Positions 1,854 through 22,131 of a stretch of 28,959 bases of DNA are shown piece after piece (positions within the stretch are counted from its first letter, which is position 1; the number at the start of each line of letters is the position of its first letter). A program made the translations under genes and the position numbers. Below the pieces are notes generated by a model, which did not search any database, was not told the DNA's origin, and saw nothing but the letters and a program-made list of their open reading frames with translations. Source of the stretch: a virus; IMG/VR virus record IMGVR_UViG_3300025102_000193, positions 1 through 28,959 of that record; one strand, given 5' to 3'.

Positions 1854-2066
1854 TTAACTTCCTTTATTCCGGTGCTCATGGTAGTAGTCTCCGTTGCCCT
1901 TTTGAATTCTTGTTACGATCTGCCAGATCCGCTGCTTACTTACGTTATAGATCTGTCCGATCTCTTTAAGAGTCATCGTACCACTATCATACAACTGAAA
2001 AATCTGTTTATAGGTTTCTTCGTTTTTCGCGATATCTTCTTGCGAAAGGCTTTGTATACGCATCAT
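1854..2066 (-). CDS. Small helix-turn-helix DNA-binding protein, 70 aa
   Basis: The segment TLKEIGQIYNVSKQRIWQIV (about residues 32-51) has the form of a sigma-70 region-4/HTH domain: a helix, a turn at the N of YNVS, and a recognition helix KQRIWQIV. The N-terminus (EDIAKNEETYKQIFQLYDSG) is a preceding helix, and the C-terminus is basic. The protein could act as a phage transcription regulator, or bind host RNA polymerase or promoter -35 regions like small sigma-region-4-like factors. The start overlaps the DNA polymerase stop (ATGATG/TGA), so it is translationally coupled. An adjacent second ATG at 2063 is an equally possible start. The target sites are unknown; the three matching promoter elements of this window are candidates. 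Confidence 0.7.
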   Translation of the reverse strand: MMRIQSLSQEDIAKNEETYKQIFQLYDSGTMTLKEIGQIYNVSKQRIWQIVTRIQKGNGDYYHEHRNKGS

Positions 2067-3925
2067 TTAGCTTCACCCCAATTTATTCCGGTTTCGTAAT
2101 CCACCACCAGTGGAACCTTTAAATCGACACAGTTAACCATTCGATCGATCACCATGTCCGATTGTTCTTTATTAAAAATCGAATAGTCGAGTTCGTCATG
2201 TATACCGATATGTGGAACTAATCCTTCTTTCCACAAATCGCGCATAGCGAGTTTCGTCATATCCGCAGCCGATCCTTGGATCAGCTTGTTTAGTGCTTTG
2301 TATGTAAACGACCGCTTGAGATTATCTCCGTATTTATCCACCGCTTCTTGTCTAGGTAGCGGCGCATGTTTTTCGCCGTGTAGGTAGCCGACCGGCTCCC
2401 ATAGGTCGAAATGGCATTTACGGCCACCGAGCGTTGTTATATAGCCGCGCTGCTCTGCCATCCGAGTACACATATTTTGTATCCCTCGGATAAAAGGAAC
2501 ACGGCTATGGTACAGGTCGAGTAGTTTCCCAGCTTCGTCTGACTCTAACCCTAATTCTTTAATGAGCTTTTCGCGGCCCATCCCATACGTTAGACCAAGG
2601 TTGATATTCTTAGCTTGTTTGCGGGGGATACCCGCCATATCAGCTACGATCTGGTGAAAATCAGCTCCTTCGTTAGAATACGCATTTACCGCGTCAGCGG
2701 CTCCCTCGAGTCCGAGCAGCGACGAATAATGTACAGTGATCCGAGGCTCTTGTTGAGAGTAATCGAATACTCCCCACGTTGCTCCTTCTTCGGGGATAAA
2801 CAAAGACCGAATCAGCTTACCGATCTCTGGGTCTCTCGCAGGAACTTGCTGAAGGTTTGGGTTCGAGTAACTAAACCGTCCTGTTACTGTACCGCCGCCG
2901 TCATTCTTTAGCGGGTGCGCTTCGGCATGTATCCGACCGTGGTGCGAATATTCTAAGATCGCTCCTTCGATAAACGTAGTCCGAGCCTTATTAATACGTC
3001 GAGCTTCGACGATCATCTTCGGAAGGTCATGTTCGTGAGCTTCTAACCACGGGCCTTGGAAACTTGGCGCACCTTTCTCGGTATGTGGATACCATAAGTC
3101 ATTGGCGTCGAACGCTTTTTGTATTGACGCGCTCGCCCAAATATCTACGTTGATACCGAACCGTCTCTTAATCTCTACGAGTAGTTGCTGTTCTTTCTTA
3201 GACATTTGCTCCGAGGCTTGCTCTGCTCGGGCCGTGTCGATCCGAACGCCGCGCCATCGCATCTCGATCAGCAGCGGTATAAGGTCGCACTCTAGGTCGA
3301 ATATCTTCTGTAGCCCCTCGGCCTCTATACGCTTCCCTAGCGTCTTCCACAGGCGTAGCGTTAGGACTGCGTCCTGTTCCGCATACGGCCCCACATACTT
3401 CGCTGGGAGCGACCACATGCCGCTCTTTGCGTTTACGCCCCACGCTTTCGCTGCCATCTCGAGTAGCGTTTCGTCTTTTTCCTCAGCTAGTAAATCCTTA
3501 CCCAAGTTGTTTAGCGAGTATGACCGGCGGTTTTCATCTAACAGTGGCGCTGCAAACATCGTATCGCGTAGCCTGCAAGTTAGCTCCACACCTTCACGTT
3601 TTAGCCAGCCCACATCATAAAGTGCATTATGGAAAACCATCGTACCTTTATGATTTTCAAAGGTTCTTTTGAGCCAGCGTAGGACAATTTCTTCCTCTAA
3701 GTTGCCGCCGTTTTCGTGCCGTATCGGTAAATACCCTGACCATGAATCTGATGCGATAGCGATCCCGACAACATAGCCGTCACCCGTTGCCCATCCTGGA
3801 CCACGGTTTATCAAGTTGGGGTCGTAAGTTTCTAAATCGACCGCGAGTGTTTCGTGTGGGTCGAACTTAGGTAGAACTTGCGGAGCTATCCAATCGCTTT
3901 CAGGCTGGATCAGTGGTATCTGCAT
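2063..3925 (-). CDS. Family A DNA polymerase with 3'-5' exonuclease (replicative)
   Basis: A 620-aa replicative polymerase. The N-terminal DnaQ-like proofreading domain carries Asp30/Glu32 (AVDLETYD), HNALYDVGWL (99-108) and YAEQD (181-185), so all exonuclease acids are present. The polymerase domain has GRFSYSNPNLQQVP (349-362), motif A FDYSQQEPR (387-395, Asp388), motif B RKQAKNINLGLTYG (435-448, Lys439, Tyr447) and motif C IHDELDYS (575-582, Asp577/Glu578). There is no 5'-3' nuclease domain, as usual for phage Pol A. The residue equivalent to E. coli Phe762 is Leu443. The start at 3925 is supported by AGGAGG nine bases upstream inside the Nmad1-like gene, which it overlaps by 26 bases. It shares the operon with the predicted base-modification genes, so the polymerase may copy modified dNTPs. 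Confidence 0.95.
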   Translation of the reverse strand: MQIPLIQPESDWIAPQVLPKFDPHETLAVDLETYDPNLINRGPGWATGDGYVVGIAIASDSWSGYLPIRHENGGNLEEEIVLRWLKRTFENHKGTMVFHNALYDVGWLKREGVELTCRLRDTMFAAPLLDENRRSYSLNNLGKDLLAEEKDETLLEMAAKAWGVNAKSGMWSLPAKYVGPYAEQDAVLTLRLWKTLGKRIEAEGLQKIFDLECDLIPLLIEMRWRGVRIDTARAEQASEQMSKKEQQLLVEIKRRFGINVDIWASASIQKAFDANDLWYPHTEKGAPSFQGPWLEAHEHDLPKMIVEARRINKARTTFIEGAILEYSHHGRIHAEAHPLKNDGGGTVTGRFSYSNPNLQQVPARDPEIGKLIRSLFIPEEGATWGVFDYSQQEPRITVHYSSLLGLEGAADAVNAYSNEGADFHQIVADMAGIPRKQAKNINLGLTYGMGREKLIKELGLESDEAGKLLDLYHSRVPFIRGIQNMCTRMAEQRGYITTLGGRKCHFDLWEPVGYLHGEKHAPLPRQEAVDKYGDNLKRSFTYKALNKLIQGSAADMTKLAMRDLWKEGLVPHIGIHDELDYSIFNKEQSDMVIDRMVNCVDLKVPLVVDYETGINWGEAK

Positions 3926-4232
3926 CTATGAGTCCTCCTGATTCTAGCGAACGAATATGTTGCTCAACTAAAAATAAATACCGTCTGAGGTCTCCGATAT
4001 CATCGAGTAGTCCATCCTCGCCGTCGAACTTTAGCCCTGCTTCGAATACATCGTAGTTACAATGCTCGGCCTGCTGTTCGATCCTGTCGAACTTACGGGC
4101 CAACATCATAAACGCTCCCGTACCGCCTCGACGCTTCCACGAATCGCCGTAAGATTTTTCTGATTCGATCAGGCTAACTATGTCTTCCTGAGCGATATTC
4201 TTCATATCCGTCCACTTGCGATCAAGACCCAT
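3900..4232 (-). CDS. Nmad1 / DUF1599-like nucleotide-modification-associated protein
   Basis: A 110-aa all-alpha protein. The pattern IESEKSYGDSWKRRGGTGAF (22-41), then ARKFDRIEQQ (45-54), and GLLDDIGDLRRYLFLV (74-89) matches the E-x-K-x-YG-x-SW...RK-x-R...D-x-x-D-x-x-Y layout of the DUF1599 (nucleotide modification associated domain 1) family, which is related in fold to MazG-like NTP pyrophosphatases. The family was linked by comparative genomics to phage DNA base modification; biochemical activity is not established to my knowledge. The start at ATG 4232 is chosen because GGAGGAATAAG immediately precedes it. The longer frame from 4334 would overlap the thymidylate synthase-family gene by 113 bases. 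The chosen form overlaps it by 11. It lies between ThyA-family and polymerase genes, which fits a role in managing modified nucleotide pools. Confidence 0.68.
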   Translation of the reverse strand: MGLDRKWTDMKNIAQEDIVSLIESEKSYGDSWKRRGGTGAFMMLARKFDRIEQQAEHCNYDVFEAGLKFDGEDGLLDDIGDLRRYLFLVEQHIRSLESGGLIDADTTDPA

Positions 4233-5274
4233 TCTTATTCCTCCAGTTTCTTTCACGTCGTTTAATCCACTGGAAGCAGGCTTGTTGCCAGTCCAACGCT
4301 TTAATTTCTCCGAGATATTTGTAGCAATCTTCATATCGCCGCTCCTTATGGCAGATGTAGGCGTGGATCATCGGGATCATCACCTCTGGGAAGAAAGTGT
4401 TTTTATATTTACTTGCTCCGAATATCGTCGGCCAGCTATCGACCGGCTCAGGGTTTCCTGAAACTCGTCTCGGCGGGACACTGCTTAATAGTTCCCCACA
4501 TTCTTCTAAAAACGTCTCGGGGTGAGAACAGAGCGGGTAATGTTTTTCTGGGTATGTATCAGATACCGGAAGGAATGGAGTAATACGGAGGTCTTTTACC
4601 TTATCCCACTCTTTGTTGAGGTAGACATGGAAACTGTCACTGACTTGATAGTACGGCCCTATGTAGCAGCCTAATGCCGCAGCAACGTATTCTTGCAACA
4701 CCGACATATGAACTGCGTTAGCACCGTAAGCTCCCCAGATCATATCGTTCGATCTGTTACAGACAGTCATCTGTAAGGCGCTGTCTCTGATCTTAAAGTA
4801 GATGTTCGTATTGCATGGGATATCTTTGCTCGGACTGTTGAGGTCGTGAACTGGATCCCACATCTGTAAAACAACTCGACGAGAGTCAGGGTCTTTCGTT
4901 AGCATTTCAACTACGTCTTTTAGTTGGTCGTAGTGAAACTGGTGCCTCCACCGATAGCCATAAGAACCGTTTAAGGTTTCGTTATCGTCTGAGAAATTAG
5001 CCATCCCTGCATTAAAGTGGGTGAGCTTTTGTAGATCTCGAGAACCGCCTAGCATCCAAATCGCTTCATATAGATGAAAGAATGGATTAGCGTCTCGTTC
5101 CTCGCTAAACAGTACCCTCTGCCAAGGCTTGCTATAAACGGTAGTAACCGGAGTGTGGCACTCCATCGTATCTCCATTGCGGCTGGCCTGTGTTCGATAA
5201 TTTACTGACGACTGGAATAAGTCAATGCCCCGTAGAAGGGCGTCGTTTACATTGACCGCACTAATCACTTTCAT
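4222..5274 (-). CDS. Thymidylate synthase-family enzyme (TS or dUMP hydroxymethylase)
   Basis: A 350-aa member of the ThyA/pyrimidine hydroxymethylase superfamily, which transfers a one-carbon unit from methylenetetrahydrofolate to C5 of dUMP or dCMP. Visible motifs: FHLYEAIWMLGGSRD (66-80), SRRVVLQMWDP (131-141), catalytic Cys154 in DIPCNTNIYF, RSNDMIWGAYGANAVHMS (174-191), and SFHVY (214-218) equivalent to the dTHxY motif. Two features are unlike classical ThyA: the catalytic Cys is followed by Asn not His, and the C-terminus (RRERNWRNKNGS) lacks the canonical hydrophobic 'PxAV/I'-type tail. Neighbouring base-hypermodification genes make a dUMP hydroxymethylase role plausible, but ordinary TS activity is not excluded. 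The start has GGAGAG six bases upstream and overlaps the 78-aa gene by 14 bases. Confidence 0.88.
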   Translation of the reverse strand: MKVISAVNVNDALLRGIDLFQSSVNYRTQASRNGDTMECHTPVTTVYSKPWQRVLFSEERDANPFFHLYEAIWMLGGSRDLQKLTHFNAGMANFSDDNETLNGSYGYRWRHQFHYDQLKDVVEMLTKDPDSRRVVLQMWDPVHDLNSPSKDIPCNTNIYFKIRDSALQMTVCNRSNDMIWGAYGANAVHMSVLQEYVAAALGCYIGPYYQVSDSFHVYLNKEWDKVKDLRITPFLPVSDTYPEKHYPLCSHPETFLEECGELLSSVPPRRVSGNPEPVDSWPTIFGASKYKNTFFPEVMIPMIHAYICHKERRYEDCYKYLGEIKALDWQQACFQWIKRRERNWRNKNGS

Positions 5275-5497
5275 AAAGACTCTCCGTCTGCTGGTTAATG
5301 ATGTATTCGATCTGAATACGACCTAGATCGACTCCTGAAATATACGCTGCCCAATGAATTGCGTTGATAGCGTCTTGCCAAGTATTCGGCATCGTTTTAT
5401 CTTGCATCGCTTTTTGTAAAAACAACCCGTAGTGCTCCATAGCAAATTCAACCTGATCTTTATCTAGGTCTACGACCAACTGTTTTAACTTTCCCAT
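5261..5497 (-). CDS. Hypothetical 78-aa protein between hypermodification and ThyA genes
   Basis: Not recognised. The sequence starts MGKLKQLVVDLDKDQVEFAM and is a compact, mixed-charge, predominantly helical protein with WQDAINAIHWAAYISGVDL in the middle, and no catalytic motif, signal or membrane span. The ATG at 5497 has an excellent AGGAGG five bases upstream. That Shine-Dalgarno is the last unit of the 36-base tandem repeat at 5501-5608, and an in-frame TAG lies immediately upstream, so no longer N-terminus is possible. The gene overlaps the ThyA-family start by 14 bases, suggesting coupled synthesis and perhaps an accessory role for that enzyme (inference). Confidence 0.72.
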   Translation of the reverse strand: MGKLKQLVVDLDKDQVEFAMEHYGLFLQKAMQDKTMPNTWQDAINAIHWAAYISGVDLGRIQIEYIINQQTESLYESD

Positions 5498-5500
5498 CTG

Positions 5501-5608
5501 CGCCTCCTACGGCTGTATTATTGTTTCCTGTAGTACCGCCTCCTACGGCTGTATTATTGTTTCCTGTAGTACCGCCTCCTACGGCTGTATTATTGTTTCC
5601 CGTGGTAT
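5501..5608. repeat. Three tandem copies of a 36-bp unit, each with a Shine-Dalgarno motif
   Basis: Units at 5501-5536, 5537-5572 and 5573-5608 start with CGCCTCCTACGG on the plus strand. Units 1 and 2 are identical; unit 3 differs at three bases and runs into the last codons of the hypermodification gene. Read on the gene strand, each unit contains TAGGAGGCG, and CCGTAG/CTACAGG can pair (one bulged A) around a loop that exposes GAGG. The unit proximal to the 78-aa gene supplies its ribosome binding site. In one frame the array has no stops and encodes repeated TTGNNNTAVGGG. Confidence 0.93.
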
Positions 5609-6483
5609 TCAATCAACGGGCGATCTTTTTTCGAGTAGTCATACACGCTTCGTGTTCGACCTTGCCCATGTAATATCCGAGAGTATTTATCAAACTCACA
5701 TAGCCCTCCTTCGATCTCTCGCATCTCGAAAGGTCTGTGGAATTTACTAAGGTCTAACTGTTCTCTACACCACTGATATAACGCCTGCATTTCGCCGTTC
5801 CAATCCCAGCTGCGTTTACAAAACTCTAGTGGTCTACCTGTCAGCCTGTTCAATCCTCTCATTGCTCCAGGCCCAGCATTCGCCCAAGAACAAATATCCT
5901 CAGCGTTTTCTAGCAGGTAGGTATGGCGTAGGTCAGAAACTAGTTCGTACGATACAAACGGGCCGATATACGGAAACCGCATCAGGTAGTACCACGCGTC
6001 ACATAAAGACTTGAAGTGTTTGAAGTCTTTTAAGATGCGCTCTCGCTCTACCCAGAGATGAGTGACGCATTCAGCTACGCCTGTTACCTTATCCATACGG
6101 TTAGGAGTTTTGACGATATACGCGCCGGTAATCCACTTCGGCTGTTTCCGCACTTCTTCGATCGCCTTCTCTCGATCCCACTCAATTAGTAAGTTATGGT
6201 CGAGCAGCGTTCTGCCTGTTTCGATCAAGTTAAAGAATCTAAAAATTACCGTCGCCATTAGCACGTCAGGGTCGTTGCGTAGTGGCTCGCGAATATGCTC
6301 GCGAAACCACCGCGTAGTCCTATCGTCCTCGCGGAAGACTTGGCAAAACTTAAACTCTTGCAATATCGGGTCGAGAGTCCAAGGCGGCTCTAGTTTCTCT
6401 TCCTCTTTTACTCGACGTATCCGTTCACGTTCTTCGATCCAGTAAACGTACCGATCTACCTCTGCGGGTATGAAATTTGTCAT
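5590..6483 (-). CDS. DNA base hypermodification protein (aGPT-Pplase / HMUDK helical family)
   Basis: A 297-aa protein of the alpha-glutamyl/putrescinyl-thymine pyrophosphorylase and 5-hmdU DNA kinase helical-domain superfamily, a DNA-glycosylase-like helical fold. Diagnostic blocks in order: PPWTLDPILQEFKFCQVFRE (33-52) leading into DDRTTRWF, IFRFFNLIETGR (80-91), GAYIVKT (120-126), PYIGPFVSYELVSDLRH (171-187), AGPGAMRGLNR (203-213), GGLCEFDKYSRI (259-270) and GQGRTRSVY (273-281). The family acts on 5-hydroxymethyl-uracil derivatives already in phage DNA. No P-loop kinase domain is fused, so the kinase step would need another protein. I choose ATG 6483, giving an ATGA overlap with the methyltransferase, over GTG 6504, which would overlap by 25 bases. 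The gene sits in one operon with a ThyA-family enzyme and an Nmad1-like gene, the context expected for thymine hypermodification. Family confidence is high; the exact reaction is not determined. Confidence 0.87.
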   Translation of the reverse strand: MTNFIPAEVDRYVYWIEERERIRRVKEEEKLEPPWTLDPILQEFKFCQVFREDDRTTRWFREHIREPLRNDPDVLMATVIFRFFNLIETGRTLLDHNLLIEWDREKAIEEVRKQPKWITGAYIVKTPNRMDKVTGVAECVTHLWVERERILKDFKHFKSLCDAWYYLMRFPYIGPFVSYELVSDLRHTYLLENAEDICSWANAGPGAMRGLNRLTGRPLEFCKRSWDWNGEMQALYQWCREQLDLSKFHRPFEMREIEGGLCEFDKYSRILHGQGRTRSVYDYSKKDRPLIEYHGKQ

Positions 6484-7343
6484 GCAGGCTTTCTCAATAT
6501 CCACGCGCAGTTGTTAGAAACTTCTGGGAAAAACGTCGCGGCAACTACTCGCAAGAACTGTTTACCGTAGCGTTCTTCGAGTAACTCGAACTGATCAGGT
6601 AGCCAACGCCACTCGCCGTCCTCGCCGTCTTTCTGCATAGCCTTCTTTAGTTTAGGCATTTGGCAAAACGTACCGACAACCGACTGTAGTTCCCAGCCTC
6701 GTGATTCTTTCGTAAGCTCGTCTTTTAGTTCTTCGAAACCCCATTCGTAAACGTGGTCTTCGGGTAGCTTATCGTTAGATCCGTCATGGTTAGGCGTTGA
6801 AACGTAAATCAGTCCTCCTGGACGCAATACTCGGTTAGCGTCATCAAGCCATGGTGCAATAAACTCTCGGCCCATATGTTCAATAACTTCGGTAGTCCAG
6901 AAAAAGTCTATTGATTCGTCGGGCAGGTCAAATACGGGGTTTACCGTAAGGTCTTGAATATCAATCTGTCCGTTGAAGTTAGCGAACCATGTCGAATCTT
7001 GAACGAATCCAGTAGGGCTGCTATAGCCAACCTTTTCGTTCAGGACAGCAGGGTCGATATCTACGCCGCGATAAGAGCGGATCACGTCCGACTTCTTTAC
7101 GGTGTAGGCTTTATATAAATTACGCAGTACCCAAAGTTCTCCGCACCCTGCTTCGAGTACGTCGATAGGTCTGTCGCGATACTTCGCTTCTCCGATACAT
7201 AGTGACGAACATTTATCGAAGCGCGTCATATGTGTAATTTCGTCAGGTCGCCAGTTGCCGAGCATATTGCCGCTGGCAATATCCATGCGGGTATTTTTGC
7301 TGTCGTTAGCGTTTTCTTGAAGGGTCTTTCTAATAGAAGCCAT
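6480..7343 (-). CDS. Class I SAM-dependent methyltransferase (Methyltransf_11-like)
   Basis: A 287-aa Rossmann-fold methyltransferase. Motif I is DVLEAGCGELW (61-71), motif II YRGVDIDP (91-98), the acidic/post-II block is DFFWTTEVIEHMG (146-158), and motif III NRVLRPGGLIYVSTPNH (170-186). There is no DPPY/NPPF motif of N6-adenine or N4-cytosine DNA methylases and no Pro-Cys of C5-cytosine methylases, so it is not a standard restriction-type DNA methylase. The fold and motif order match the UbiE/Methyltransf_11 group, which methylates small molecules, tRNA bases or modified nucleotides. It lies directly before the hypermodification gene with an ATGA overlap, so methylation of a modified thymine or of its precursor is a reasonable inference. 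Substrate is unknown. Confidence 0.85.
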   Translation of the reverse strand: MASIRKTLQENANDSKNTRMDIASGNMLGNWRPDEITHMTRFDKCSSLCIGEAKYRDRPIDVLEAGCGELWVLRNLYKAYTVKKSDVIRSYRGVDIDPAVLNEKVGYSSPTGFVQDSTWFANFNGQIDIQDLTVNPVFDLPDESIDFFWTTEVIEHMGREFIAPWLDDANRVLRPGGLIYVSTPNHDGSNDKLPEDHVYEWGFEELKDELTKESRGWELQSVVGTFCQMPKLKKAMQKDGEDGEWRWLPDQFELLEERYGKQFLRVVAATFFPEVSNNCAWILRKPA

Positions 7344-7843
7344 TAACTAATCCACCATGTTGGTTTTCTTGAAGGGTCTTTTACCCATTTAGCGAAATAA
7401 GATTTCTCGCCTATGAGATAGTTGCGGTACGAAGCGTAAACATCTTCGCATTTATATTCATCAGGCATTGCTAACGCAAAGCCCTCTGGATTTTTATTTG
7501 CTCGTTGTATTCGGTAGTCAGGGAAGGGTAGCCAGAACAGAGACCATAGTAACTTCGACGACTTATGTTCTTTACCGTAGCGGTGCGTATACTCTTGACA
7601 CAATTCTGAAAAGTGCCGGTATAGCCAGATATAGTTTTCTGGTGATTCACGAACCCAGATACTACATGGGTGGTTTAGGTGTGCTTGTTTGTACAAGTTC
7701 TCTCTTTCTGCACGTTCATTATCAAACACGCGCCACGCAGTAGACAACATCTGAGCGGATTCTAAAACCATCTTCACACAGTGTTTGTCACATTGTTCAC
7801 GCGCACTTTGTACAGGACACGGGTCAGTTACAAAGATATTCAT
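7343..7843 (-). CDS. Conserved phage protein of unknown function, Cys/His/Trp-rich, 166 aa
   Basis: The protein starts MNIFVTDPCPVQSAREQCDK and has a compact set of conserved-looking residues: CDKHCVKMVLESAQMLSTAWR (N-terminal), NHPCSIWVRESPENYIWLYR (middle), EYTHRYGKEH, and a C-terminal YRNYLIGEKSYFAKWV. I recognise this pattern as a widespread phage family, sometimes annotated as a pyrimidine-dimer DNA glycosylase, but I do not regard that label as established here. The density of invariant-type His, Cys, Tyr and Trp suggests an enzyme or metal-binding protein. It is the first gene of the base-modification/polymerase operon, with GGAG nine bases before the ATG and a promoter-like element just upstream. 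It overlaps the methyltransferase start by one base (TAATG). Confidence 0.75.
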   Translation of the reverse strand: MNIFVTDPCPVQSAREQCDKHCVKMVLESAQMLSTAWRVFDNERAERENLYKQAHLNHPCSIWVRESPENYIWLYRHFSELCQEYTHRYGKEHKSSKLLWSLFWLPFPDYRIQRANKNPEGFALAMPDEYKCEDVYASYRNYLIGEKSYFAKWVKDPSRKPTWWIS

Positions 7844-7900: not shown

Positions 7901-9394
7901 CTAAAGCGGGAAGTATTTTTGAGTTTGCGGCTCAATTAAAAACAAGTTCTCCTTTGCTCGGGTTAGTCCAACGTAAAACACCCGCGACTCGTCGTCAGGG
8001 TTTGATTGGTACGATTTATAAATCCTGTTCGAGATATCGGTTAGCAAGATTACGTTTTCAGCTTCGCCTCCTTTAGCTGCATGGATGGTCGATAGCTTGA
8101 TCCGTGGTTCTTTAGTTATTTTTTCTCCTCGTCTAAGCATCGCACGAATGTAGCTGCGTTCCGAAACTGAGATTCCGTCGAACAAGTCGTACCAATATTC
8201 TTTTTTGAGATCAGGTACGAACTGCTGCGCCTGATCGAATGAGATATTAGTATCAAAGTCGTTTCTCTCTAGGGAGATAGGTACGCGGATCTTCATATAA
8301 TTTAAGACTTTGGTAAGATCTACAATCGGTATTTCGCCACCCTGCCGTAGAGTTTCCCAATCGCGCACCGCTTTGACCTTTTTCTCAGAAACTGAGTTGC
8401 GGTTTTTACTTTTATAGAACCAGCCTTCTGACCGGCAATGTTCTTCGATCCCGTTTAATAAGTAGTTTGTTCTAGCAAGCACTAACCACTCACCACTTTC
8501 CATGTCGATCGTTTCGTAAGACGGTTCCCACGAAACGTGCCCAGCTTCTTTACGAGGGTTCCAGCTTTTCTGTACCCGCGATGCCACCTGCCCGATACAG
8601 TTTTGTGCAATCTTATGTATCGAAGATGGAACGCGATAAGACTGTTTTAAAATCATCGCGTCTTTTGAATTACGGATTAAGTAATCAACGTCGGCACCCG
8701 CCCAACGATAGATCGCCTGATCGTCATCGCCTGCGATATAAATACGATCCGCTGATTCACATAACTTACGAACTACCGCCCACTGTAATGGCGATAGGTC
8801 TTGAGCTTCGTCTACGAACATTACATCTAACTTCGGAGCGCGTCCTCGATCTAAAAACAACTGCAACATATCGGTATAGTCGATAAGTAATCTGTCGTCT
8901 TTAAACAGTCGCAAGCCGTTCGCAAACCGCTCTAATTCAAACCAGCCAACAACGTCGTCAGAGTCGTGCCACTGGGTTTCTAAATTTACCTGCCTCATCC
9001 GAGCTAGGTTTTCTATGAACAATAATCGGTCATCTTTAGAGATGCTCGAGATATGTCCCTCTTCGGAACTAACAGAGCCAGTTAGACGCAAGTTCAACTT
9101 CTGGTTTAAATCACCAATATCTCTCGAACTCATGACGCTATCTTTCGACAGCCCTAACTGGAAAAAGCAAAGAGAATGTAAGGTTCTAAAATACGGTAAC
9201 TGTCCATTCGTTATCGCGAACCTCGACATCGCCCTAGTCTTGCCTTCCTGTACCGCTTGTTTGGTAAAGGTGAAGAACCCAATGTCTTCTGGGCAAGTCC
9301 CCCGATCTAATTCTTCTTCTAATAGCCCTAGTAGTGTGCTCGTCTTCCCTGTTCCTGGAGGCCCAAGGATTATTTGTGCATCTGACTTTAACAT
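7901..9394 (-). CDS. UvrD/Rep-type superfamily 1A DNA helicase
   Basis: A 497-aa SF1A helicase. Motif I (Walker A) is GPPGTGKT (11-18), motif Ia FFTFTKQAVQEGKTRA (40-55), motif II VDEAQD (194-199), motif III AGDDDQAIYRWAGAD (221-235), motif IV LKQSYRVP (249-256), motif V LSTIHAAKGGEAENVILLTD near the C-terminus, and motif VI VFYVGLTRAKENLFL at about 472-486. The protein is shorter than bacterial UvrD (about 720 aa), with compact 1B/2B insertions, closer to Dda-like phage helicases. It probably unwinds DNA with 3'-5' polarity at the fork or during recombination. The start overlaps the primase-polymerase stop by one base (TAATG) with no strong Shine-Dalgarno, indicating translational coupling. 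No DnaB-type replicative helicase is visible in the window, so this or the SNF2-type protein may be the fork helicase. Confidence 0.92.
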   Translation of the reverse strand: MLKSDAQIILGPPGTGKTSTLLGLLEEELDRGTCPEDIGFFTFTKQAVQEGKTRAMSRFAITNGQLPYFRTLHSLCFFQLGLSKDSVMSSRDIGDLNQKLNLRLTGSVSSEEGHISSISKDDRLLFIENLARMRQVNLETQWHDSDDVVGWFELERFANGLRLFKDDRLLIDYTDMLQLFLDRGRAPKLDVMFVDEAQDLSPLQWAVVRKLCESADRIYIAGDDDQAIYRWAGADVDYLIRNSKDAMILKQSYRVPSSIHKIAQNCIGQVASRVQKSWNPRKEAGHVSWEPSYETIDMESGEWLVLARTNYLLNGIEEHCRSEGWFYKSKNRNSVSEKKVKAVRDWETLRQGGEIPIVDLTKVLNYMKIRVPISLERNDFDTNISFDQAQQFVPDLKKEYWYDLFDGISVSERSYIRAMLRRGEKITKEPRIKLSTIHAAKGGEAENVILLTDISNRIYKSYQSNPDDESRVFYVGLTRAKENLFLIEPQTQKYFPL

Positions 9395-14795: not shown

Positions 14796-16205
14796 TTAGT
14801 TCCTTGGTACGTTAGGCCGAAAGGCGTTTTGGAACGGTTGTACGTTCGTATCGAAATTAGTCAGATCCATTATACCGTTTGATACTTGACCGCCCATGTT
14901 CTTTTTATCAGGGTTATACGACATACCGCCAGTAAACGGATTATTATACATCCCGCCAGCAAAGGGTTGATTTCGTTCGTTATATTCTTCAGGAGTAAAC
15001 GGTTCGTTATACTCGCTATAACTTGGTGTAAATGTTTTCAAATACGATGTAAATGGATCTTGGCCTTGTCCTGCTCGTTGGCTTTCTATCAAACTAGCCA
15101 TAGGGCTACCTCCAGGAAGGAATGACGCACCTGCATCAAACTGTGAAGTAGAACCTGTTCGTGGGCCGGTAGGCACTGAAGATGCATAGAAGTTCTGTAC
15201 TTCCTCTTTCGCATCAGAAATTTGTTGGTTTACTGCATCAGCTTCGTATTGCGAAGTTACGTCGCTATACTGCTGTTCAAGATCAGCTATTTTCTTTTCT
15301 AATGCAGTTATCGTTTCTGTTTGATCTTGTGGTAAATACGCTTCTAATTGTTCAGGTGTTAAATAGTTTTGGAATAAAGTTTCTAAACCTGATTGCGTTA
15401 CATACTGCGACATATCAGGAGCAGATTGATCTACCCCTTGTTGAATTAGCTCATTTACTTGTTCTTCGGTTAACCCTGCTGCAACAGCTTGTTCAACAGC
15501 TTCTTCAGCACTTTCTCCAGCTTGTGAAGACACTAGTTGTTCAATTTGCTCTCTAGTTAGCAAGCCTTGATCGAAAAGTTGTGCAAGCTGAGTTTCGCTT
15601 AGTTGATAAGAAGAGATGAGTTGTAAAACTTGCTGCTCACTCATCCCACCGTCGATAAAGTTTTGTAATTCTTCAGGCGATAATTCACCTGCAGCTAACC
15701 GTCGTTGAAATTCTACATCTGCTGCAGCTTGTTCTGCGGCTCTTCGTTCTGCTTCCGCAGTAGCATCTGCTTCTTGTTGCGCTTGGCGTTCTTGGCGTCG
15801 ACGTTCTTGTTCAGCAGCTCTTTCTGCTGCAGCTGCCGGATCTGTAGAACGAACGTAATCCCCGCGATCGTATTGAGCATAATCGTTACCGTATGCACCC
15901 TGTTCAACATTGAAGCCCATCGCCTCAGAAGCTGAAGGGCCGTACATATAATTAAACGCATCTACTTCTTCCGGAGTAGGAGAAGCAACTACTCGTTGAG
16001 GAGCAGTTTGACCAACTGTATCGGCAACTACAGGATTATTCGCCATATATGCGGCAATGCGCTCAGGGTCAACGTCAACATTGATATTAATACCGCCGCC
16101 ACCGAACATTTTAGCAGGTTCGACTTCGCCGCCGTTGTTCATTTGGGCGGGTTGTGGTTCTTCTGAATACTCTATCGTTTCAGGTTGAAAAAATTTAACT
16201 TTCAT
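14796..16205 (-). CDS. Virion protein with tandem short helical repeats and coiled coil, 469 aa
   Basis: The N-terminus has Gly-rich patches (NNGGEVEPAKMFGGGG, about 23-38). Residues 120-170 form a highly charged A/E/Q/R helix. Residues 174-226 contain four tandem 13-14-residue repeats (LSPEELQNFIDGG, MSEQQVLQLISSYQ, LSETQLAQLFDQGL, LTREQIEQLVSSQ) with further copies at 245 (LTEEQVNELI) and 282 (LTPEQLEAYL). A coiled coil follows (ALEKKIADLEQQY, 301-313), and the C-terminus is Pro/Asn/Tyr rich with NPFTGGMSYNPDKKNMGG. Function unknown; its place after the 1223-aa protein (ATGA overlap) suggests an internal virion or ejection protein. The repeats may build a solenoid or a helical rod. Confidence 0.75.
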   Translation of the reverse strand: MKVKFFQPETIEYSEEPQPAQMNNGGEVEPAKMFGGGGININVDVDPERIAAYMANNPVVADTVGQTAPQRVVASPTPEEVDAFNYMYGPSASEAMGFNVEQGAYGNDYAQYDRGDYVRSTDPAAAAERAAEQERRRQERQAQQEADATAEAERRAAEQAAADVEFQRRLAAGELSPEELQNFIDGGMSEQQVLQLISSYQLSETQLAQLFDQGLLTREQIEQLVSSQAGESAEEAVEQAVAAGLTEEQVNELIQQGVDQSAPDMSQYVTQSGLETLFQNYLTPEQLEAYLPQDQTETITALEKKIADLEQQYSDVTSQYEADAVNQQISDAKEEVQNFYASSVPTGPRTGSTSQFDAGASFLPGGSPMASLIESQRAGQGQDPFTSYLKTFTPSYSEYNEPFTPEEYNERNQPFAGGMYNNPFTGGMSYNPDKKNMGGQVSNGIMDLTNFDTNVQPFQNAFRPNVPRN

Positions 16206-19200
16206 AGATCTAACTCGAATTTTTTCGCGACCTTTCGCTTAAATTGTTCTACTTCCTGTTCCACTTCTTGTTCTTCGCCGTATCTTCCTAACGCTATTTG
16301 TTCTATTAATCTTAAAGAGTCACCCAAGGGTAGTCTTTTTGTATCATATATTTTCATAAACTCATCTAGCTTTTTTGGATTAGCTAAAATCATGGCGAAA
16401 TGGTTAGCTACTTTAGGTGATAACTCTCCTAAAAGAAGATTAGTTCGATATCCAGCACGAGACAGCTGCCCGAAAGCACCTTTACGAACCGCTGAAACAG
16501 TACCTGTTGCTCGTTCCATAATTGTTTGTAAAGTTTCTTGTGAGGCTTGTTTAGGGTTTCTCCTTTCTTTCGCTACGAGAATTTTAGCGCGGCGAGCGAA
16601 ATTTCTTAAATTTTTAGCAAATCGCAAAGCATCTTTTTCGCCAACTATCAAAGATAAATCTTCAGCTAAATCTTTATCTGTTGGGGCATATAAAACTAAA
16701 TCAGTTAGTTCATCTAAATCAAAACCACTGTCTACACGGTCAGCTGCACCTCGGAACCTGCTTTGTCCTCTGACGACTTCAGCCCCAATTCCTGCTAAAT
16801 TTTGTATTCTTCTTGTAAAATCTGTTCTTAAAGCAGTCCTTAAATCGGGGTATTCATCAGCTATTGCTGAAAGCTCTTTTAATTGAGACCAAGTTGGCGA
16901 ACCTCTAAAATCTCTTTTCGCTTTAGGCGTCATCCTAAAATAAGCGTCAACTACTTCAATCGGAGAATTTACGAAATCTCCAGTTTCTGGATTGATCATT
17001 CTGTCTATGACAGAATTCACTCGTTGTAATTGTTTCTCATTATTTTCTATATCTAGCCTGATTCTTTGAAAATCTTTAGGATTAAGTTCTGTTTGGGGGA
17101 ACAATATTCGTAACTGTGCTCCGTTACGATCGCTTAAAATTCTTAAACGATTAGCTTGTTGAACAGTATTCGAGCCATCTCCGCGCACTTCACGGTCTAA
17201 CGCATCGAACACCACTCTTCTAACCTGCTGTAATTTTACTAAGCCTTCGGGAGTTTCTGATAAAACCTCTACCAAGCCGTCAACATCTGTCGGCTTACTA
17301 TTTAAAATATATGATCCGAGTTCGCTGGGCTCTTTCGTCGCAACTTGATAAAAATATCGACCACTAACCCGATCCTGCGCTTCAGTTATCCTTAATTTGA
17401 CATCATTAATATCCTCACCAACAACTGGTAGAACATCTCGTCTATACTCTTCAGGATTTTTAGCTTCTGTTGGTGCGCTTCTGTCTCCAGTAATTTTCTT
17501 ATACTGGATTCTATATGCTTCGCTTCTTGCGTTTGCGAGACCTTGAAGTAATTTCTTCCCTTCATCTCTCACTTTTTGATTGGGGTGAGAGTTAAACATG
17601 CTCTCTAAGTTTTCCATAGTTCGAGTAATTTCTTCTATAGAAAATCTTCGTTGAGCTTCGAATCGTTTGGGATCAGCAAGCTGTTGAATACTTATTCCTT
17701 CATCTGATCTATTTTGTAAAATACCTCTGATCATTTCTGCAACTTCTGCATCATCTGCAGAGCCGAAAATACGGTCTTGTGGTTTATTAGCATTGAGCAT
17801 TCGATTTAGCTGCTCGCTAATAAACCTAGGCAGAGGCACTACAGCTTCTTGATAAACTTGAAAATCGTTACCATCTATATCCGTTGCAGTTTTATTAAAA
17901 ACTGTGTCGTATTCTCTACGAATCGGGTCGATAAATTGACGATACATCGTCATTAATTCAGAGGTGTACTGAGGATAAGAAGGCGATCCACCTTCTACAA
18001 TATTCTGAACATCTGCTACTACATCAGAGGTAGGGCCAACTACTCTTTGATCCACAACTACTTCTTCTAAGTCTAGTTGTTTCTCTATATCAAAAATATC
18101 TTGCTCTATTGCTTCTTTTCGTTTTCGTCTATTTTGTATTTTTATTCGATTGACTAATTTATTAAAAGTATCTCGATCTAGTTTTAAATTGGGTTTTAAA
18201 CCAACTTTTATTGACTCGTAATACCTGTCTAACGCCCCGCCTTGATTATTTAGGATTCTATTAAGTGCTGCATAACCTTCTGAACCTTGATCCATCGTAG
18301 CTATCAAGTTGTTTTCTATAGATCTTAAAACACCGTCATTCGTCAGATCACTTAAAGAATTTAATTCTTCGGTAACTTCACCGCCAGCCTCAGTAATAAA
18401 TTCGTTCATCTGTGCTGTAGAAAAATCTGCGTCTTCTGGAGGTAATTCCCCGAAACTTCTTTGTCTTTTTCTTCTTAAATACTCGCCAGCCGCTCTCAAA
18501 CGAGCTAGGAGTTCTTCAGGCATTCGCTCGCCTGTGAACATATTTTTAACTTTTCCATATGCTTTTAAAGCTAATTCTGAACCGAATTCTCCCCCAGCCG
18601 CATAAATACCTGCTAGACCAGATATTTCAAAAATACGACGGTCACTCATATCGGGCTGATACCCTGCTGCTCTAGCATATAAAAGTTTACCAGCTTCTGC
18701 GGAAGCCTCTGCGATACCAGAAACTGAAGCAAGTCCCGCCATTTTCGCGCCAGTTTTCAGAGCGCCTGACGTTTCTAAAACAGGTTCGCCTTTTTCGATT
18801 TTTGCTAAATTTCTATCGATTTGTTTTTGTGCTCTACGGTTTAATCCTTCCCTAAAAAGTTTTACAAATCCACCGCCAAGTACGAGTGCAGGAGCTTCTC
18901 TTGTTAAAAACACATCCATTTCTGTGAGGAATGCTTCAGGATTACCTTCAAATAGGGACTCTAAAGGTTGTATATTCCCGAAAGGCACAGGTTTACCGCC
19001 TGTCAAATCGCTTTTAATAATAAACTGGTTACTCTCTATACCCTCTGAACTAAAATCTACATATTCAACTTCAGCAGTAGGATCGAACCGATGTACTAAA
19101 TTTTCTACTTCCCGTTTATTTAAAGTTGCAGGGCTTATGATTCGTCCAAAACTTAAATCGTTTAACTGATCGTCGTCTAATAAAGACATATAATTAGTAT

Positions 19201-19873
19201 TAGGGTCTGCACCACGAGCAGCGTATTGTGCTCGTTGATCTTCGTTTATATCGAATAATCCGCTAACCAGACCAGACGGAACACGAGCCGCTTGCATCGG
19301 AGAAGGTCTTACTTTGTTATTTAATCCGATAAATCTATCGAGCAACCCTCCTTTTAAAGCACCTGCATCGGGTCTTTTCCTTTCTTCGTAGGGCAACCCA
19401 TCTAAGTCTTCGTTAGAAAAAGCATAGTCAATAAACGCTCGGTATTGCGTTGGGTTATGTAAAGATTGAAGTGTGGCGACGTCTAATTGACCTTGATCAT
19501 CTACATAGCCTTCTTTCATAAGGTCTGCACGAACTTCTCTTAACAGCTCAGAATCTGCTTTTAAATCTAAAACATTGTCTAAAAAATCTAGTTGTAAAAA
19601 TCGTTCTTTAGCGTTGGGGTAATACTCGCCTAAACTTTGTCCATCTTTATCAGTGGGCTCAAATGCAATATCTGTTTCATAAGGCGCAGTAGAAACGACA
19701 TCTAAAAAACTAAAAGTTTCGTCGGTTCTTGCATCTCTTTTAGCAATGGGTTGACCGCGAAAATAAGGCTCTCGATCAGCAACGAATTTTTTATAAGACT
19801 CGTTGTTATAAAATAAATCAGACGGCGAAGTAATTAATTTTTCGTCTTTATCAAAAGCTGTTGCTTGTACCAT
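16202..19873 (-). CDS. Very large putative internal virion / ejection protein, 1223 aa
   Basis: The largest gene of the window. The sequence is mostly helical and charged, with long coiled-coil-prone stretches (for example NRIKIQNRRKRKEAIEQDIF about residue 570, and PKDFQRIRLDIENNEKQLQR in the C-terminal third). An Ala/Gly-rich, possibly membrane-active segment lies near residues 370-430 (GAKMAGLASVSGIAEASAEA then GKLLYARAAGY). No lytic transglycosylase or peptidase motif could be seen. Size, helical character and position match internal core/ejection proteins of podoviruses such as T7 gp16 or P22 gp16, but without sequence homology I can assert. The start at 19873 has GAGGAAG upstream, two bases after the stop of the 751-aa gene. 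Confidence 0.72.
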   Translation of the reverse strand: MVQATAFDKDEKLITSPSDLFYNNESYKKFVADREPYFRGQPIAKRDARTDETFSFLDVVSTAPYETDIAFEPTDKDGQSLGEYYPNAKERFLQLDFLDNVLDLKADSELLREVRADLMKEGYVDDQGQLDVATLQSLHNPTQYRAFIDYAFSNEDLDGLPYEERKRPDAGALKGGLLDRFIGLNNKVRPSPMQAARVPSGLVSGLFDINEDQRAQYAARGADPNTNYMSLLDDDQLNDLSFGRIISPATLNKREVENLVHRFDPTAEVEYVDFSSEGIESNQFIIKSDLTGGKPVPFGNIQPLESLFEGNPEAFLTEMDVFLTREAPALVLGGGFVKLFREGLNRRAQKQIDRNLAKIEKGEPVLETSGALKTGAKMAGLASVSGIAEASAEAGKLLYARAAGYQPDMSDRRIFEISGLAGIYAAGGEFGSELALKAYGKVKNMFTGERMPEELLARLRAAGEYLRRKRQRSFGELPPEDADFSTAQMNEFITEAGGEVTEELNSLSDLTNDGVLRSIENNLIATMDQGSEGYAALNRILNNQGGALDRYYESIKVGLKPNLKLDRDTFNKLVNRIKIQNRRKRKEAIEQDIFDIEKQLDLEEVVVDQRVVGPTSDVVADVQNIVEGGSPSYPQYTSELMTMYRQFIDPIRREYDTVFNKTATDIDGNDFQVYQEAVVPLPRFISEQLNRMLNANKPQDRIFGSADDAEVAEMIRGILQNRSDEGISIQQLADPKRFEAQRRFSIEEITRTMENLESMFNSHPNQKVRDEGKKLLQGLANARSEAYRIQYKKITGDRSAPTEAKNPEEYRRDVLPVVGEDINDVKLRITEAQDRVSGRYFYQVATKEPSELGSYILNSKPTDVDGLVEVLSETPEGLVKLQQVRRVVFDALDREVRGDGSNTVQQANRLRILSDRNGAQLRILFPQTELNPKDFQRIRLDIENNEKQLQRVNSVIDRMINPETGDFVNSPIEVVDAYFRMTPKAKRDFRGSPTWSQLKELSAIADEYPDLRTALRTDFTRRIQNLAGIGAEVVRGQSRFRGAADRVDSGFDLDELTDLVLYAPTDKDLAEDLSLIVGEKDALRFAKNLRNFARRAKILVAKERRNPKQASQETLQTIMERATGTVSAVRKGAFGQLSRAGYRTNLLLGELSPKVANHFAMILANPKKLDEFMKIYDTKRLPLGDSLRLIEQIALGRYGEEQEVEQEVEQFKRKVAKKFELDL

Positions 19874-19875
19874 TT

Positions 19876-22131
19876 CTACGGCTTCCTCTTCAGCTGCTCT
19901 AAGGTCTTACCGCCAGTGCCTGTGTTTTGAGTCGAGGGAGTTTGTGCTCTACTTTGGCCTACAAAATCGTAAAGGAAAGTGTTCTTATCAATTCCAAAAG
20001 TATCGAAATACCCACCGTCTTTTAAAAATTCCATAGCTATCGGATCATTTTCTGCGCGATTACGAAAATCCGTTTCAAATGATCTAAATTTAAATCGTCG
20101 AGATTTAGGGTCATATATAAAATATGGGGCGGCTCTCGTAGAAAGTCTACTTATATCGGTCTGTATCTCTGATTGTAACCCTTGAGCTTCCTCATCACTT
20201 AAAACGAACTCACCATCTGGGCCGACTTCTGAAAGTTTATTTAGTTTAGTTGTCGGAATTTTAACGAGGTCTGCGATACGTTGGTTAGCTAAATCCGTGT
20301 CACTTCCAGCAGATAAACTTTTTAGATCAGAAAAAATCGCACTACGAGAATCTGCATCCCTAATTTGTGTCGCTATAAACTCTGCGGTTCTAGTTCCGAC
20401 GTCTCTTGCATTGTTAGAATCATAGCCAACTTGCTGTAAGAAATTTGACACGTCTTTATCAGAAAGCGTTCGTCCTTCCTGACCAGCAGAAGCCGCCGCT
20501 GCATAAGCTAGTCTAATTTGTGCAGCGATTAATCTACCTCGTTGTACAACAGCGTTAGTAACTGCTTCTGAGTTACCTAAACTAAACGCAGGTGCGGCAC
20601 CCGACTGACTAGATTGCTCTAGACGATTTAAAGCAGTGATTAATGCGTTATCTGCTTGATCCATTGCAGCTTGTTGTTGCGTTGTCGGAGGCTGTCCAGC
20701 AACATAATTTTGGTAGGCTCTTGCATGGTTATTAGCTGCTGCAAAAACACCCATGACATTGCCAGAGGGCTGGTTTTTATGTAGTTGTGATCGGATAATT
20801 TGATTAGTTGAAGTGCCTTGTGTTTCTAAAAAATCGCTTACTGCATCTAATTCTAGATTCAAACTAGAAGCGATCTTGTTTAAAAATACATCCGCTTTAG
20901 TAAAAACTTTTGCACCCTTGCCGCCTTCAACTTCTTCTTGTGCAAGTTGAAGTACGACTCGTCCTGAGTTCAAAGTATTGTTCAACGCACCAAACTGCAA
21001 GTCTAAATCTTCGAAAAGTTTTCCTCTCTCAGTTCTTCCTGCTGATAATTTAGGGCCACCTTCTATTCCTGGACTATCTAAAATCCAGTTTCTTTTGAGA
21101 GTTCTCCACTCTTCTTTCTCTCTGCTTCGTTCACCTTCAGGGTCAGCAATAATTGTCATTGGTTTGCGTGTGCCATCTGGCTGCATAACTGCAGGATAAA
21201 AATACCCTACCGCGCGATCGTTAGATTCTGTATCTATAAAGTTTCTAACCTGTGACGAAGGAATATCTGCATCATCTAGTGTCAAATTACGATTTATATA
21301 CGCTTCGCCTGCTCTAATTATCTGTCTTTTACCGTTTTCATCAACATAGACATCTATTTTTGGATCTGCTTGGCTTATTACATATCTTTGAGATCCGTCT
21401 TTATTTGTTAAGACATCTCTTTTGATCTGGACTACTCCGTTAGTGTCCGAGTCCAAATACGCCCCGTAAGTAATCGATCGTGTTAAATCGACATCTTTAG
21501 TGAGCGCAGTATCTCGAGCCGTAGCACGTTTTAAATAATTATCAAGCCTCGTTTGATCTAAAGCACGCTCAAGTTTTTTACCTGATTGGGCGGCAGAAAT
21601 ATAAGAAGCTACGCCTCCATCGTCTTCTTCGCCTGCAAGAGCAAAAGCAGGAGCAAAAGTTAAAAGTTCTGTTAGACCCTTACCTAACATTGTTTTTTGT
21701 CTAGGCAACATCTTTTTATCTAACGGTAAGGCTTGATCTATTCGATTTCTTAACCTTATTCTTTCAACCTCTATTGGGTCGAGCGGTGCGCTAGTTCCTA
21801 ACTCTCCTAAAACAGTTTTTTGTTTAAGATCACCTGTTCCGAAATCAGAATCTGTAATCCCTAGTTCTGTCGCTGAGATATCTTTATCTTCAAATAATAG
21901 ATTTCCCAATCCTGCTTTATCAGCTAACTCGAGTCCCGCTTCAGCTAAAAACGGCGAGGATGCGCCTAACAGCGCACCAAGGATCTGTTTTTTAGGGTCT
22001 TTTTCGTCGCGCTGCGTTTGTCGTCGAGGCGTAGGCGCAAACTGCACTGAGCGAACAGGCGTAACTTTAGGGGCTTGAACTAAATTAGCAATACCCCCAC
22101 CGCCGACATTAAACCCAAAATTCTTCGCCAC
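19876..22131 (-). CDS. Putative internal virion protein, 751 aa
   Basis: Not recognised by motif. The N-terminus is Gly-rich (GFNVGGGGIANLVQAPKVTP), followed by a hydrophobic stretch (ILGALLGASSPFLAEAGLEL at about 51-70) and long Ala/Gln/Asp-rich helical regions. A beta-rich segment around 225-330 contains NGVVQIKRDVLTNKDGSQRY. The start codon is GTG at 22131, supported by TAGGAGCATAAC directly upstream; the preceding gene stops two bases before. Lack of catalytic motifs and its position between the 567-aa and 1223-aa proteins suggest an ejection or core protein. A tail-associated role is possible. Confidence 0.7.
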   Translation of the reverse strand: MAKNFGFNVGGGGIANLVQAPKVTPVRSVQFAPTPRRQTQRDEKDPKKQILGALLGASSPFLAEAGLELADKAGLGNLLFEDKDISATELGITDSDFGTGDLKQKTVLGELGTSAPLDPIEVERIRLRNRIDQALPLDKKMLPRQKTMLGKGLTELLTFAPAFALAGEEDDGGVASYISAAQSGKKLERALDQTRLDNYLKRATARDTALTKDVDLTRSITYGAYLDSDTNGVVQIKRDVLTNKDGSQRYVISQADPKIDVYVDENGKRQIIRAGEAYINRNLTLDDADIPSSQVRNFIDTESNDRAVGYFYPAVMQPDGTRKPMTIIADPEGERSREKEEWRTLKRNWILDSPGIEGGPKLSAGRTERGKLFEDLDLQFGALNNTLNSGRVVLQLAQEEVEGGKGAKVFTKADVFLNKIASSLNLELDAVSDFLETQGTSTNQIIRSQLHKNQPSGNVMGVFAAANNHARAYQNYVAGQPPTTQQQAAMDQADNALITALNRLEQSSQSGAAPAFSLGNSEAVTNAVVQRGRLIAAQIRLAYAAAASAGQEGRTLSDKDVSNFLQQVGYDSNNARDVGTRTAEFIATQIRDADSRSAIFSDLKSLSAGSDTDLANQRIADLVKIPTTKLNKLSEVGPDGEFVLSDEEAQGLQSEIQTDISRLSTRAAPYFIYDPKSRRFKFRSFETDFRNRAENDPIAMEFLKDGGYFDTFGIDKNTFLYDFVGQSRAQTPSTQNTGTGGKTLEQLKRKP

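Follow-up and report, generated by a model that had tools for sequence, protein, structure and literature searches.

The window analyzed here is the whole of a 28,959-base virus record (IMGVR_UViG_3300025102_000193), itself a fragment, and its minus strand carries a predicted thymine-modification cassette in which an S-adenosylmethionine (SAM)-dependent methyltransferase takes the place of a 5-hydroxymethyl-2'-deoxyuridine (5-hmdU) DNA kinase. We identified seven consecutive minus-strand genes, mostly overlapping, that extend from a 166-residue gene through polA (positions 7843 down to 2063), the sole intergenic gap being 92 nt between the gene for the HMUDK_hel protein and that for a 78-residue protein. 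Six of them are densely packed between a UvrD-like helicase gene (7901–9394, minus strand; PF00580, 9e-27) and the family A DNA polymerase gene (2063–3925, minus strand; PF00476, 4e-55), which form the two edges of the insertion. The Pfam and PHROG matches confirmed the gene order, including the SAM methyltransferase, the ThyA-family enzyme and polA, that had been proposed from the sequence alone. The window had no direct DNA match among phage records.

The HMUDK_hel protein (5590–6504 from a GTG start, or to 6483 from an ATG start with an ATGA overlap; minus strand) matched PF18723 at E 1.3e-42 (146.5 bits, cut-off 25), as expected from the sequence-only reading, which had placed it in the aGPT-Pplase/HMUDK family. 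It is 36–39% identical to M6 ORF055 and PaMx11 gp50, and it retains all 21 columns that are invariant in 43–46 homologues; these residues are common to members from kinase-, methyltransferase- and glycosyltransferase-type cassettes. The AlphaFold model (pLDDT 92) is all-helical. In Foldseek searches of the PDB, the top matches were archaeal 8-oxoguanine DNA glycosylases (probability 0.91–0.93, with weak E values of 0.3–0.4), and the PaMx11 glycinyltransferase gp46 was also listed, while a sequence search found no solved structure of an HMUDK_hel protein. The BFVD matches comprised HMUDK_hel proteins and the 637-residue 5-hmdU DNA kinase of phage SP10, the length of which suggests a fusion of the helical part with the kinase part. 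We found no fusion of a methyltransferase gene with an HMUDK_hel gene, and the HMUDK_hel open reading frames longer than 420 residues all lie in kinase-type loci.

The ThyA-family enzyme (4222–5274, minus strand; PF00303, 2.2e-23; phrog_5131, 8e-108) has as its closest named relatives the hydroxymethylase/thymidylate synthases of the Mesyanzhinovviridae phages CN1, FP1, M6 and PaMx11 (38–43% identity), with 42% identity to the dUMP hydroxymethylase gp58 of M6. In an alignment with E. coli ThyA, the C146 nucleophile is kept and N177 indicates uracil specificity, while Trp80 is missing and H147 is replaced by N; the latter two features recur in every member scored. Positions 147 and 177 separate modified from unmodified phage contigs in the MetaGPA study (PMC8670742), and the DNA of M6 contains 5-(2-aminoethyl)dU made from 5-hmdU (PMC6449724). 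The best match among solved structures in the PDB was the CMP 5-hydroxymethylase MilA. The residue pattern and homology provide good support for the prediction that the window enzyme is a dUMP 5-hydroxymethylase.

A methyltransferase in the kinase position

The characterized M6/ViI-type hypermodifications of 5-hmdU begin with phosphorylation of the hydroxymethyl group. In the M6, CN1 and PaMx11 clusters, a P-loop kinase gene lies directly upstream of the HMUDK_hel gene, which is followed by the hydroxymethylase gene and later by polA, and an amino-acid:DNA transferase (ADDT) gene lies upstream; one or two genes separate HMUDK_hel from the hydroxymethylase in M6 and CN1. The window resembles these clusters in its HMUDK_hel protein, dUMP hydroxymethylase (38–43% identity), family A polymerase (36–38%) and gene order. 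It differs in that the M6-type clusters own the P-loop 5-hmdU DNA kinase, the ADDT and more tailoring enzymes, whereas the window has, directly upstream of HMUDK_hel, a single-domain methyltransferase of 287 residues (6480–7343, minus strand; Pfam Methyltransf_23, 4e-10). Our account of the M6 pathway draws on PMC6449724, PMC11946847, Pfam names and general background.

The same exchange was found throughout the relatives. The methyltransferase gene was upstream of HMUDK_hel in 80 of the first 80 relatives (59–97% identity over HMUDK_hel), and a profile survey yielded 102 distinct loci with HMUDK_hel and the methyltransferase, none of which had a kinase or an ADDT; in all 102 the methyltransferase was upstream on the same strand, mostly with an overlap of 1–31 nt. 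Conversely, 26 distinct loci combined HMUDK_hel with a kinase (18 with an ADDT) and had no methyltransferase. Twenty HMUDK_hel loci had neither partner, and 22 methyltransferase loci had no HMUDK_hel. Among distinct methyltransferase-type loci with enough flanking sequence, HMUDK_hel, the hydroxymethylase, the small conserved protein described below and polA were all present (99/99), and the kinase and the ADDT were both absent (0/99 each). This recurrence indicates that the gene arrangement is not due to chance.

Searches of related contigs with PF18748 (5-hmdU DNA kinase) and PF18724 (ADDT) gave no match in 50 contigs each, nor did a broader 15-sequence kinase profile (A9) in 36, while the controls were positive in each case (3/3). 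The earlier observation that no kinase is visible therefore holds well outside the window. Four of the contigs free of kinase and ADDT (61,173, 63,434, 64,567 and 65,914 bases) have 97–196 bp end repeats, and so look complete. The methyltransferase was never found in the kinase-type cassettes (M6, PaMx11, CN1 and viral contigs). The missing kinase and the unusual methyltransferase, which the sequence-only reading had listed separately, are a single fact, a seat swap. Its inference of modified thymidine stood as far as a 5-hydroxymethyluracil-based cassette is concerned (PF18723 and a uracil-type ThyA-like enzyme); the kinase and aGPT-Pplase adduct chemistry that it implied did not, and the role of adduct installer is not transferable to HMUDK_hel, as the amino-acid:DNA transferase is a separate Pfam family that is absent here. 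Its suggestion of a variant not yet described gained support, since the methyltransferase holds the kinase seat in every such relative, and both the kinase and the amino-acid transferase are absent. The system is a new variant among the known 5-hmdU hypermodification pathways. The cassette and the seat swap are solid observations, with the gene identities, the swap and its conservation, the absence of both enzymes and the methyltransferase signature described below all computed directly.

The nearest polA relatives from named phages (48–52% identity), in 023Pt_psg01, DSL-LC04 and the Pelagibacter phages HTVC027P and HTVC023P (L366–L369), share the primase–helicase–polA order but lack the cassette; across their full records, HMUDK_hel, this kind of methyltransferase and PF00303 genes are all absent. 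The cassette parts are gained and lost together. The helicase–polA junction may be a site where genes for DNA modification insert. Cellular genomes gave only a few fragments, the best being a 5 kb contig from a Maricaulis metagenome-assembled genome.

HMUDK_hel also occurs with partners other than these two. A TAGT glycosyltransferase gene overlaps HMUDK_hel upstream in one cassette (L213, 7199–7993) and lies within the HMUDK_hel cluster in another (L196, 12973–13800), while in a third (L207, 8822–11102) HMUDK_hel is followed by an FkbM methyltransferase and a glycosyltransferase. Like the window, these cassettes have HMUDK_hel, a uracil-type hydroxymethylase and no recognized kinase; they differ in being tailored by a glycosyltransferase, or by an FkbM methyltransferase and a glycosyltransferase, rather than by a HEN1-like methyltransferase. 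They suggest further undescribed uracil modifications.

The methyltransferase family and its AXL3-type branch

The residues E152, E155, H156 and H197 of the methyltransferase are invariant in 39 homologues (23–88% identity), as are T18, D34, H38, R41, N278 and W281. A search of the PDB with the family profile listed human HENMT1 first (7e-7); HEN1 from bacteria and plants was also among the hits, as was UbiG. In the motif alignment with HEN1, EVIEH corresponds to ELIEH and DHxxE to DHKFEW, so that the HEN1-type ligand set E-x-x-E-H plus a distal H is present. In HEN1, these ExxEH and distal His residues bind a divalent metal and activate a hydroxyl. Plant HEN1, which methylates a terminal hydroxyl, conserves E796, E799, H800 and H860 around its active site, and the first of these glutamates is rare in small-molecule methyltransferases (PMC1397878). 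AlphaFold predicts a class I methyltransferase fold for the window enzyme (pLDDT 85). The likeness to the HEN1 small-RNA 2'-O-methyltransferases lies in the ExxEH ... TPN ... DHxxE signature and the profile match; the window enzyme differs in its single domain of 287 residues, its DNA base modification context and the family-specific residues T18, D34, H38, R41, N278 and W281.

A distant branch of the family (27–28% identity) was found in Stenotrophomonas phage AXL3, Pseudoxanthomonas phage PW916 and the Manatee Spring phages ctUtU524 and ct3Et533, where the methyltransferase gene lies one to three genes from that of a ThyA-like hydroxymethylase. Of 22 viral contigs with the distant-branch methyltransferase, 21 also encode a ThyA-like enzyme close to it, and the remaining one is truncated. 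These methyltransferases share all 19 residues checked with the window family, apart from E64D in one row. As in the window, the same methyltransferase family stands near a ThyA-like enzyme, but the hydroxymethylases have D177, the dCMP type, in 21 of the 21 distinct ones scored, compared with N177 in 99 of the 99 scored loci with methyltransferase and HMUDK_hel, and the four named genomes contain no HMUDK_hel. The AXL3-type group (L085, which is AXL3, L086–L088 and L166–L187) also has nucleoside triphosphate (NTP) pyrophosphohydrolase and kinase-like genes. A scan with the ct3Et533 methyltransferase as query returned nothing.

The occurrence of one methyltransferase family beside both uracil- and cytosine-type hydroxymethylases points to the shared 5-CH2OH group as its substrate. 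By analogy, the predicted product in the AXL3-type phages would be 5-(methoxymethyl)-2'-deoxycytidine. AXL3 DNA was cut by only 2 of 37 restriction enzymes, both with A/T-only sites, a pattern that was interpreted in that study as alteration of G/C bases (PMC7504290). A precedent is the MetaGPA system, in which a carbamoyltransferase encoded beside dCMP hydroxymethylase genes was characterized as a cytosine-modifying enzyme (PMC8670742). Both systems combine a transferase with a ThyA-like hydroxymethylase, and the 5-hydroxymethyl group is capped there as is predicted here, but the group transferred there is carbamoyl, not methyl, and the base is cytosine, not uracil.

Accessory genes of the cassette and the window

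The 166-residue protein at the head of the cassette (7343–7843, minus strand) is a homologue of Pyr_excise, the T4 endonuclease V-type pyrimidine dimer glycosylase family (PF03013, 2.3e-10; phrog_624, 4e-60). It had been described as conserved; a family could be assigned, but the gene was found in only 46 of 99 methyltransferase-type relatives, and is therefore an optional rather than an essential cassette part. It may serve in repair, or as a self/non-self enzyme, in connection with the modified base. The 78-residue protein (5261–5497, minus strand) had no Pfam match above the cut-off and was recognized only in closer relatives.

The small conserved protein upstream of polA (3900–4334, start possibly at 4232; minus strand) is defined by a family motif (YGDSWKxRGGxGAFMMLARKxDR ... 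LLDDIxDLRRYLxL) and has no convincing Pfam match. The Nmad1 identity initially given to it was rejected, as all 12 members of the family that were searched failed to match PF07659 at E <= 0.5. The family (YGDSWKxRGGxGAFMMLARK ... DDIRDLRRYLLL) accompanies hydroxymethylase cassettes of the methyltransferase type and some of the kinase and FkbM types. Elsewhere in the window (16202–22131), two very large same-strand proteins of 1223 and 751 residues are probably virion proteins.

Proposed route to the modified base

We slightly favor the view that the cassette modifies thymine by a variant route, with an O-methyltransferase replacing the 5-hmdU DNA kinase and forming 5-(methoxymethyl)-2'-deoxyuridine, the chemistry being inferred. 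Judging from its residues and homology, the ThyA-like enzyme would produce 5-hydroxymethyl-dUMP, which would be polymerized into the DNA and replace T partly or entirely. HMUDK_hel, with its DNA-glycosylase-like predicted fold, would then bind the DNA and present the 5-hydroxymethyluracil, and the methyltransferase, using SAM and a HEN1-like divalent-metal site, would methylate the exposed CH2OH group. Such a route would involve neither phosphorylation nor amino acid addition. A literature search of partial coverage found no mention of 5-methoxymethyl pyrimidines in DNA.

Because of its glycosylase-like predicted fold and its pairing with other enzymes elsewhere, the simplest reading of HMUDK_hel is a shared subunit that would present 5-hmdU in DNA to exchangeable catalytic partners. 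The broader proposal is more tentative, and we place it somewhat short of an even chance: HMUDK_hel may be a general adaptor for kinase, HEN1-like, glycosyltransferase and FkbM partners, with 5-(methoxymethyl)-2'-deoxyuridine in this uncultured clade and a cytosine counterpart in AXL3.

Several observations weigh against the favored explanation. The AXL3-type methyltransferase occurs without HMUDK_hel, so the family is not strictly dependent on it, and hydroxymethylcytosine or some other change could account for the restriction resistance of AXL3. The HEN1 profile match is weak (E 7e-7), and Foldseek ranks small-molecule and other class I methyltransferases above HEN1. The relatives share descent and fall in few HMUDK_hel clades, so that the 99 loci do not represent separate origins; when the methyltransferase label is mapped on a tree of 79 HMUDK_hel rows, two changes are required, and a single origin is also compatible with the tree. 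The gene order varies in the other HMUDK_hel cassettes, and adjacency is thus not always partnership.

The main competing explanation is methylation of the free nucleotide, with the methyltransferase converting 5-hydroxymethyl-dUMP (or the dCMP analogue in the AXL3 types) to the methoxymethyl form before polymerization, with HMUDK_hel in a separate role. The AXL3-type gene set of methyltransferase, hydroxymethylase, kinase-like and NTP pyrophosphohydrolase genes without HMUDK_hel would suit this explanation, as would the resemblance of the active-site motif to small-molecule O-methyltransferases. We nevertheless consider it unlikely, given that, in the uracil type, the methyltransferase invariably occurs with HMUDK_hel (102 distinct loci), that HMUDK_hel has a glycosylase-like predicted fold and elsewhere partners a kinase named for its action on DNA, and that the substrates of HEN1 are polymers.

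An ordinary M6-like pathway, in which phosphorylation of 5-hmdU by an unrecognized or host kinase is followed by addition of another nucleophile and by trimming of this adduct by the methyltransferase (such as N- or carboxyl methylation), appears improbable. In its favor, HMUDK_hel is most familiar as part of the kinase pathway, through its Pfam naming and its neighbors in M6, and M6-type phages use several extra tailoring enzymes. However, PF18748, PF18724 and the broad kinase profile matched nothing in 36–50 related contigs, four of them terminally redundant, with positive controls; moreover, the methyltransferase sits in the kinase's own position, and the AXL3 types use it without HMUDK_hel. 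We give similarly little credence to plain 5-hmdU in the virion DNA, with HMUDK_hel and the methyltransferase regulating or protecting some other target (for example by HEN1-like RNA 2'-O-methylation or RNA end repair). By sequence profile, the closest proteins of solved structure include RNA methyltransferases, but among 11 isolate or complete records the methyltransferase occurred only where a PF00303-type enzyme was also present, and it is absent from the close polA relatives that have no such enzyme. A plain thymidylate synthase in a cluster for nucleotide supply only, as the annotation of many relatives would have it, is very hard to reconcile with the missing Trp80 and H147-to-N change in every member scored, the 42% identity to the enzyme of a phage with a 5-hmdU-derived base in its DNA (PMC6449724), and the MilA match.

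Returning to methylation of 5-hmdU in DNA, the phage's thymine substitute is probably one that has not been described, for example 5-(methoxymethyl)uracil, and it would protect the DNA against bacterial defenses; the ether cap would stop both restriction enzymes and enzymes acting on free hydroxymethyl groups. If this is correct, replacing the kinase with a methyltransferase provides a one-step route to a capped thymine, adds an ether-type base to the chemistry of DNA, and offers a function for HMUDK_hel proteins found without a kinase. It would also yield an enzyme for methylating 5-hydroxymethylpyrimidines, which could be used in labeling or blocking 5-hydroxymethyluracil and 5-hydroxymethylcytosine. 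The proposed role of the methyltransferase would further make the restriction resistance of AXL3 DNA, so far unexplained, testable in an existing isolate.

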